A stretch of DNA of 64,000 nt from Piscinibacter gummiphilus (GTDB taxonomy: Bacteria > Pseudomonadota > Gammaproteobacteria > Burkholderiales > Burkholderiaceae_C): contig NZ_CP136336.1 of NCBI RefSeq assembly GCF_032681285.1, positions 1,723,001 through 1,787,000 on the forward strand, read 5' to 3'. A model generated the notes under the pieces. That model made no database searches and was not told the origin of the DNA. It saw only the letters and a list, made by a program, of their open reading frames with translations. Below, in pieces: positions 6,627 to 7,869 of this stretch (within the stretch, counting starts at the first letter, position 1; the number at the start of each line of letters is the position of its first letter). Position numbers and translations under genes: made by a program.

Positions 6627-6708
6627 GGGCCGCCGCGCCGGGCCGCCCCAAGCAAGGCCCGACCCGCTTGGAGGGTCGCCTGCCGTACTCGGCAGGCGGG
6701 GAGTCGTC
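6627..6708 (+). promoter_or_regulatory. Three-hairpin leader before the MFS gene
   Basis: The whole gap between the Bug stop and the MFS start can fold into three adjacent hairpins: GGGCC/GGCCC (6640-6644 with 6656-6660), GACCC/GGGTC (6661-6665 with 6673-6677), and GCCTGCC/GGCAGGC (6678-6684 with 6691-6697) around the loop GTACTC. The ribosome site GGGGAG follows immediately. A second copy with different stem bases but the same loop lies before nadD at 26515-26599. Conserved layout with compensating changes suggests a structured mRNA element; its function is unknown. Confidence 0.6.
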
Positions 6709-7869
6709 ATGACCGTTGGCGTCTACCTCGCCGTCGTCCAGTTTTTCTTCGCGCTGTGCTGGACGGTCTATGTGGCCTACCTGCCGCAGCTGGCGGCGCA
6801 GGTGGGCATTCCCAAGTCGGCGGTGATCTGGATCCTGATGCTGGACCAGCTCATCTTCGTGCTGAGCGACTACGCCTTCGGTGTGGCGAGCGACCGCGCG
6901 GCCAAGGTGGTGGGTCGGCTCGGGCGGCTGGTGGTGGCGGTCACGCTGCTGTCGTGCGCGGCCTTCCTCGCGCTGCCGCTGGTGGCGCCTTCGGGCTCGG
7001 CGCCCCTCTTCCTCGTGCTGGTCGTGCTGTGGTCCATCACCTCCTCGGCGTTGCGCGCGCCGCCGCTCACGCTCGTGGGCCGGCATGCGGCGCGGCCGCA
7101 GCTGCCGTGGCTCGTGGCCCTGTCGGTGTTCGGGCTGGGCGTGGCGAACGCGATCGCGCCCTACCTCACGCTGCAGCTGCGCGAGGTCGACCCGCGCGGC
7201 CCCTTCCTGCTCGCGAGCGTGGCGCTGGCGCTCGTGACCTGGGGCATCGTCGCGGCCGAGCGCAAGCTGGTGCATCACGGGGCGGCCAAGGCAGCGTCGC
7301 CCGCGCCGGTGGAACTGCCGGCCATCCGCGGCTTCCTGGCGGCGGCGGTGCTCGCGGCGGTCGCCTTCCAGGTGCACAGCTTTCTCAACAGCGCGCCGCT
7401 CTACCTGCGCTTCGCGGCGCCCGACCAACTGGCCTGGCTGGCGCCGGTGTTCTGGGTCGGCTTCAACCTTGCGCTGCTGCCCGCCGGGGCGCTCGCCAAA
7501 CGTGTGGGCGCCTGGCGGGTGATGGCGGCGGCGGCCCTGCTGGCGGGCTTCGCCACCTGGGCGGCCGGGCAGGCGCCGAGCTTGAACGCGCTGATCGTGG
7601 CGCAAGGCCTGGCCGGGGCCGGCTGGGGCTTCCTGCTGATGAGCGCCTTCGCCACCGCGCTGGCGCTCGGGCACACCGGGCGCGAGGGGCAGCTCGGTGG
7701 GGCGCTCTCGTCGGTGCTGGCGCTGGCGGCGCTGTCACGCATGGCGGTGCTGGCCGGTGGCTGGCACAAGACACCCGAGGTACAGGCGCTCCTGGCCTGG
7801 GCGCCCGCAGCCGGCTGGGTGGCAGCAGGGGCCGTTCTGTGGTGGGCGACACGCCGCCGCGTCGCATGA
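6709..7869 (+). CDS. MFS-type membrane transporter
   Basis: Encodes 386 residues that are mostly hydrophobic, with about 12 predicted membrane helices and a charged central loop (AAERKLVHHGAAKAASPAP) separating two six-helix halves, as expected for the major facilitator superfamily. A loop SDYAFGVASDRAAKVVGRLG between helices 2 and 3 corresponds to the family's cytoplasmic D-R-rich motif A. No substrate can be assigned. The ATG directly follows a structured leader with the ribosome site GGGGAG. Confidence 0.75.
   Translation: MTVGVYLAVVQFFFALCWTVYVAYLPQLAAQVGIPKSAVIWILMLDQLIFVLSDYAFGVASDRAAKVVGRLGRLVVAVTLLSCAAFLALPLVAPSGSAPLFLVLVVLWSITSSALRAPPLTLVGRHAARPQLPWLVALSVFGLGVANAIAPYLTLQLREVDPRGPFLLASVALALVTWGIVAAERKLVHHGAAKAASPAPVELPAIRGFLAAAVLAAVAFQVHSFLNSAPLYLRFAAPDQLAWLAPVFWVGFNLALLPAGALAKRVGAWRVMAAAALLAGFATWAAGQAPSLNALIVAQGLAGAGWGFLLMSAFATALALGHTGREGQLGGALSSVLALAALSRMAVLAGGWHKTPEVQALLAWAPAAGWVAAGAVLWWATRRRVA

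Follow-up and report, generated by a model that had tools for sequence, protein, structure and literature searches.

Two three-hairpin stretches between genes of Piscinibacter gummiphilus are probably copies of a dispersed mobile repeat of Burkholderiales

Two gaps between genes of Piscinibacter gummiphilus are each filled by three consecutive hairpins. This raises the question of whether such stretches are RNA leaders controlling the gene that follows, as the first-pass annotation proposed for an MFS transporter gene, or whether they owe their position to something other than their neighbors. Both lie in the window analyzed here, a 64,000-nucleotide stretch of contig NZ_CP136336.1 (positions 1,723,001 to 1,787,000, forward strand).

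Structure and conservation of the two window copies

The first stretch (copy 1) lies between a TctC-family gene, whose stop ends at 6626, and an MFS gene, whose ATG is at 6709-6711. The second (copy 2) lies between hemF, whose stop ends at 26514, and a gene that we take to be nadD, whose ATG is at 26600-26602. Each copy occupies its whole gap, and in both the order is hairpin 1, hairpin 2, hairpin 3 and a G-rich tail. The features are as follows.

5487 to 6626, + strand: TctC family receptor gene, 5' of copy 1 (Pfam PF03401, 1.1e-54; reading frame taken from the first possible start)
6623 to 6712, + strand: copy 1 mini-ORF, MRAAAPGRPKQGPTRLEGRLPYSAGGESS followed by its stop (from translation and class statistics)
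6627 to 6708, + strand: element copy 1, in the TctC-family/MFS gene gap (match to covariance model R1 at 6625-6710, 82.7 bits)
6627 to 6660, + strand: copy 1 hairpin 1, with conserved core GCGCCGGGCCGCCCCAAGC at 6635-6653 (from sequence and alignments)
6661 to 6677, + strand: copy 1 hairpin 2, GACCC/GGGTC
6678 to 6697, + strand: copy 1 hairpin 3, GCCTGCC GTACTC GGCAGGC
6709 to 7869, + strand: MFS transporter gene, 3' of copy 1 (Pfam PF07690, 2.5e-12)
25600 to 26514, + strand: hemF, coproporphyrinogen III oxidase (Pfam PF01218, 4.6e-124)
26511 to 26603, + strand: copy 2 mini-ORF, MKRAERRAAPKPARIPSGDRPTYSLGEGLS followed by its stop (from translation and class statistics)
26515 to 26599, + strand: element copy 2, in the hemF/nadD gap (match to R1 at 26515-26601, 108.9 bits)
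26516 to 26552, + strand: copy 2 hairpin 1, with core GCGCAGGGCCGCTCCCAAGC at 26525-26544
26554 to 26566, + strand: copy 2 hairpin 2
26567 to 26590, + strand: copy 2 hairpin 3, loop GTACTC
26600 to 27193, + strand: nadD-like nucleotidyltransferase gene (Pfam PF01467, 4.6e-25)

Aligned over 88 columns with a mean column identity of 85%, the two copies have in common the hairpin-1 core (GCGCCGGGCCGC-CCCAAGC in copy 1; GCGCAGGG in copy 2) and the GTACTC loop of hairpin 3. The coordinates and the alignment bear out what the annotation had reported of them, namely two copies filling gene gaps with three hairpins and sharing the GTACTC loop. That it could put no known name to the motif agrees with the Rfam 15 search, in which no family reached its gathering threshold in the window besides two tRNAs. 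These two tRNA genes, at 50087-50260, were the only Rfam matches in the window. At eight loci with copies (E<=5), nothing came near a threshold, and weak matches to CRISPR-DR and msiK overlapped the copies.

The folding energy of the window copies is by itself unremarkable, and not convincing, against dinucleotide shuffles (z = +0.24 for copy 1 and -1.88 for copy 2). A BLAST search of the window's own genome with copy 2 returned 14 strong copies, on both strands, and missed copy 1. We built a covariance model, R1, from 15 own-genome copies; at E<=10 it gave 22 matches in this genome, comprising 17 strong copies above 60 bits on both strands, three relatives at 27-36 bits and two marginal matches. 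In a plain MAFFT alignment of the 15 copies, 97.4% of cells pair, and 28 cells carry a double change, compared with 5.8 ± 2.1 in shuffles. An alignment of 102 matches, itself fitted to the covariance model, gave 97.2% pairing and 191 double-change cells against 40.6 ± 7.0, with at least one double change in 19 of 28 pairs, and pairing fell to 26-58% when the partner was shifted by 1-3 columns. None of 500 shuffles of either alignment reached the observed covariation; because the sequences in both sets are related, these shuffle counts are not to be read as probabilities. On these numbers the selected, covarying structure described in the annotation holds.

Beyond the genus, we compared 126 matches to the hairpin-1 core, where the core itself is invariant by construction, as it is in alignment A4, because the loci came from an exact pattern. 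Around it there are 79 distinct 8-mers, yet the stem pairs: the energy of stem P1 is -12.2 kcal/mol, as opposed to -8.3 ± 0.22 kcal/mol with permuted partners. Hairpin 2, defined by a simple pattern, comes next in 75 of the 126 matches, compared with 17 in a shuffled control. Within the genus, mismatches in stems are more often G-T (40) than A-C (12), with 67 others that are mostly G-A. The G-T to A-C ratio is 13:7 in sense, 15:3 in antisense, 11:2 in convergent and 1:0 in divergent copies. This excess hints that the fold of one strand was the selected form, with shared ancestry among copies as a caveat.

A cis-regulatory leader, whether a riboswitch or a protein-binding RNA controlling translation downstream, could account for a conserved structure, and in both window copies a G-rich tail resembling a ribosome site lies near the ATG. 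The annotation had further suggested that ACTC in the hairpin-3 loop pairs with GAGT in the ribosome site as a pseudoknot. The family does not support this pairing: the loop alternates between GTACTC (46 of 127 copies) and GTACCC (61 of 127), and 98 of 101 distinct rows have a G-C pair closing the loop, which leaves a tetraloop. A pseudoknot joining the loop of hairpin 1 to the GGGG tail looks possible, and neither side varies much within the genus.

Copy number, gene context and empty sites

The element is dispersed well beyond this genome. R1 was positive in 11/11 genus genomes, with 4, 4, 9, 19, 37, 40, 40, 47, 75, 78 and 106 matches (E<=0.01, 150 candidates scored per genome); the ten congeners have 4-106 matches each, among them G006 with 40 and G009 with 78. 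Across the order this narrow model found 10 of 399 genomes and a wider model, R2, found 39 of 399, in 28 of 159 genera, and in a draw from the phylum R2 was positive in 15 of 398 genomes, all listed in the same order, Burkholderiales; strict filters make these genome counts lower bounds. A scan of genome contigs with the core pattern returned at least 119 stretches, in genera that we take to be mostly Burkholderiales. The hosts are soil and water bacteria. Tandem arrays exist, with copies 84 bp apart. In three candidates (L190, L194 and L242) the flanking structure is missing, and we take them for probable chance matches. The plasmid and phage collections gave no blastn match to the genus-type query; the hairpin-1 core pattern is present in 14 IMG/VR viral stretches (L467-L480).

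Several variants were also seen. One own-genome locus (L057, G000:C1:225822-225867) is a short derivative in which hairpin 1 is fused to the tail, without hairpins 2 and 3. Records from Roseateles, Pelomonas and Paucibacter have a further long hairpin after hairpin 1 and before hairpin 2 (L152, L157, L164, L183, L186, L193, L195, L196, L198).

A simple codon-usage caller placed 81 of 127 distinct copies in co-directional gaps (53 sense, 28 antisense), 43 between convergent genes and 3 between divergent ones; these are high-scoring genus copies plus those of one further genome (G274) rather than a random sample, and they stand without a baseline for gaps in general. The same caller put no copy of the 127 within a coding frame. 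The excess of sense over antisense copies (p 0.007, independence assumed) would suit a leader. Against that reading, only 48 of the 127 copies lie sense before an ATG, 43 are convergent, the neighboring genes are unrelated as judged from the flanks seen, and pairing is kept equally well in convergent and antisense copies. Hairpin 3, for instance, pairs at 9.5 of 10 positions in copies not before a start and at 9.2 in the others. The annotation had named copies without relation to start codons as the outcome that would speak against its interpretation, and with 79 of 127 copies not sense before an ATG this is largely what we found.

The nearly constant position at gene ends (43 convergent and 81 co-directional copies, against 3 divergent) could instead indicate an mRNA 3'-end element, a terminator or exonuclease block selected where it stands and not mobile. 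We regard this as very improbable. The tail after hairpin 3 reads GGGG-Y-N-G-T-C-A-T and so lacks the T-run that would be looked for there, the element also sits inside open coding frames in other genera, and insertions of any kind that spare promoters would produce the same distribution.

Comparison with relatives separates the element from its neighboring genes. At the hemF-nadD junction it is absent in 10/10 congeners; G006, G008 and G009 have a plain ATGA gene overlap there, where the window genome has ATGA-element-ATGA. At the MFS junction, where the window genome carries copy 1, G008 has a plain gene overlap and no element. The MFS match in G006, G007 and G009 has no core in the fetched upstream stretches, and the left flank is unmatched there. 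With both window copies missing from orthologous gaps of close relatives, with unrelated neighbors and with pairing kept in convergent and antisense copies, a leader that controls translation of the MFS gene, or of downstream genes in general, is quite improbable.

The same pattern extends to other copies. For 16 of the 17 strong own-genome copies, at least one relative, often the sole one resolved, lacks the element or has something else in its place; of the 17, seven were seen in the window genome only, nine also in another relative, and one (L013) in all three resolved relatives. For 22 of 24 copies of G008 and G009 there is a relative without the element, and the remaining two (L325, L331) have no comparable flanks. 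Because 10 of the 17 own-genome copies are common to another relative, part of the presence/absence pattern reflects loss, and we read the history of the element from these comparisons as one of both gains and losses.

We found no target-site duplication common to all in 97 copies, at any offset. The ATGA at junctions may be a duplication, or may result from selection for an intact stop and start; in single cases, the ATGA of junction sites and a TCTC at L052 may be duplications. The junction that holds own-genome copy L045 is also occupied in G006, where the element is turned the opposite way (L296, G006:C2:151270-151680), and in G009, where its orientation is the same (L297); this would reflect recurrent insertion or inversion at one site. 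At two junctions where the window genome has the element, G008 carries a different hairpin repeat with TGAGC..GTCGAAG motifs (L287, L291); these would be landing spots common to unrelated repeats.

Many copies in both orientations, empty sites in close relatives and a three-hairpin fold that is independent of context and keeps its hairpin-1 core together argue that the element is mobile. We therefore consider it likely that the two window stretches represent a mobile repeat of ~85 bp that is dispersed through the genome, is non-autonomous so far as we could see, and is one member of a family spread across Burkholderiales.

Mini-ORFs at junctions and insertions inside genes

Both window copies contain a short open reading frame that spans the element. 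In copy 1 it begins with an ATG that overlaps the stop of the TctC gene as ATGA (6623-6626), and it ends with a TGA that overlaps the start of the MFS gene, again as ATGA (6709-6712). Copy 2 has equivalent ATGA overlaps, with the stop of hemF (26511-26514) and with the start of nadD (26600-26603). We asked how general this arrangement is in 126 copies (L052 omitted), again high-scoring rather than random, after setting aside 15 without a terminal CAT. By their ends, 38 copies are CATGA, both window copies among them, 10 are CATG and 63 end otherwise. In 32 of the 38 CATGA copies (34 if GTG and TTG are admitted) an in-frame ATG within 75 nt upstream opens a frame that stops on the downstream start, compared with 7 and 1 for the two other frames; the corresponding counts for the three frames are 3, 1 and 3 in the CATG copies and 12, 10 and 7 in the other 63, and p-values for these comparisons assume independence. 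The offset of the ATG fits the length of the element in the 35 copies that have one (87 nt in 27, 86 in three, 88 in three, 85 in one and 84 in one).

Such a frame could mark a gene for a small protein, a leader peptide under coding selection to which the DNA structure is secondary, and the consistent frame in sense junction copies and a start offset matching the element length of 84-88 would agree with this. The peptide varies, however, because copies differ in the frame in which their common core is read (RAERRAAPKP vs RAPGRPKP), which argues that the nucleic acid, and not the peptide, is conserved. In other contexts no frame is favored although pairing is kept, and a small-protein gene is accordingly a quite improbable account. 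A stop-free mini-ORF that ends on the next start probably preserves translational coupling instead, to judge from the arrangement of codons. Of the earlier interpretation, the structure stood and the leader found no support, and translation appears to be touched in another way, through the mini-ORF in the CATGA copies. Stop-free frames may partly reflect GC-richness. For some copies, moreover, the start codon 5' of the element may be one that the downstream gene formerly used, as seen at L324.

A shorter relative, whose mini-ORFs resemble MSAAPGRPKQARTAVRSTEVLQ and end on the following start codon, was seen in Variovorax, Rubrivivax, Thiomonas and others, between genes of varied kinds (L155, L161, L201, L220, L226, L227 and others). 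We dropped a link of its short MSAAPGRPKQ variant to cobalamin operons because the flanking proteins are of many kinds.

In other genera, the element is found inside genes. A screen of 140 core matches flagged eight loci, of which seven are in-frame: valS twice, glycerol kinase, hydantoinase B, siroheme decarboxylase, acyl-CoA dehydrogenase and the region before an M20 peptidase domain. The eighth, L242 from Streptomyces, was judged to be chance. The two valS insertions (L491, L500) are at different positions in valyl-tRNA synthetase. The coding frames of valS, glycerol kinase and siroheme decarboxylase run through the opposite strand of the element. Two in-frame loci, L481 and L482, lie beyond this screen. 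The RND permease gene (L481) holds six tandem in-frame copies. An acetoacetate-CoA ligase gene holds three, two recognized by the core pattern and the third by R2 and its peptide.

Candidate movers, known repeats and a proposed mode of spread

Neither of two resident enzymes that we considered as the mover found support. A Y1 transposase has one match in 10 of 11 genus genomes and none in the window's own genome, and no element was found beside it at E<=0.1 in 10 fetched loci (best 11 bits, E 0.68); neither the number of these genes nor their position tracks the element. A reverse transcriptase (PF00078) has no match in G006 or G009, both of which are rich in copies (40 and 78).

The element likewise falls outside several known classes. 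Terminal inverted repeats were not evident in the alignments, read by eye, and the 97 copies share no general duplication, so we do not assign it to the MITEs. No Y1 transposase adjoins it, as one would a REP with its RAYT, and it has no consistent sense position upstream of related genes of the kind expected of riboswitches or other cis-regulatory leaders.

By its behavior the nearest kind appears to be the Rickettsia palindromic element (RPE). PMC10969869 describes RPEs as small mobile palindromic repeats of ~150 bp with a stop-free frame, placed between genes and in-frame in unrelated metabolic genes. The Burkholderiales element is also small, palindromic and stop-free and occurs both between genes and in-frame inside unrelated protein genes, the latter in other genera and in 0 of 127 copies in the window's genus. 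It differs from the RPEs of that account in its length (about 60-100 bp), in its host group, and in having three hairpins with a constant core and ATGA-flanked mini-ORFs at operon junctions. The RU/ERIC repeats of enterobacteria are, in the abstract and outline of PMC2759123, dispersed and non-autonomous, with open reading frames and intragenic copies, all of which they share with our element; they differ in being 103-168 bp long, MITE-like and resident in other hosts, and that abstract and outline mention no three-hairpin core. REPs and REPINs are likewise numerous short intergenic hairpin repeats, but REPs, in the abstract of PMC3733652, are 20-40 bp with GTAG or CGTC tags, and the Burkholderiales element does not follow Y1 genes. 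Burkholderiales-1, a candidate structured RNA of uncertain type from Burkholderiales without an Rfam number (Weinberg 2010, PMC2864571), resembles our element in these general respects, a comparison made on its table row. Searches by sequence, peptide, repeat and motif found no description of the element in the matching portions of openly licensed PMC papers.

Where the repeat stands in sense at a former ATGA overlap, the upstream gene, the mini-ORF and the downstream gene are chained stop-on-start. We propose that ribosomes then read through the hairpins and pass to the downstream start, and that this read-through and hand-over would make the insertion nearly neutral. The structure would serve the multiplication of the element itself, as a folded single strand recognized in trans, and not the control of its neighbors. 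The excess of G-T over A-C mismatches, which is also present in antisense copies, is the basis for taking one folded strand as the selected form. As a tentative and more specific possibility, we suggest a SINE-like element: a short folded RNA or single-stranded DNA, specific to one strand, whose hairpin core is conserved while its stems covary freely. It would be multiplied in trans across the order with neither terminal repeats nor an enzyme to itself, and its freedom from stops would let it enter coupled operons and, in-frame, essential genes.

The mobile-repeat reading explains a repeat that is dispersed through many Burkholderiales genomes, and it cautions against taking copies of such repeats for riboswitches. 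It would also provide a second system, far from Rickettsia, of mobile palindromic repeats that enter coupled operons and housekeeping proteins. Of most interest are the mover and the fact that operons and housekeeping genes tolerate such inserts, and the order-wide presence/absence data in cultivable bacteria make the question of the mover directly testable.
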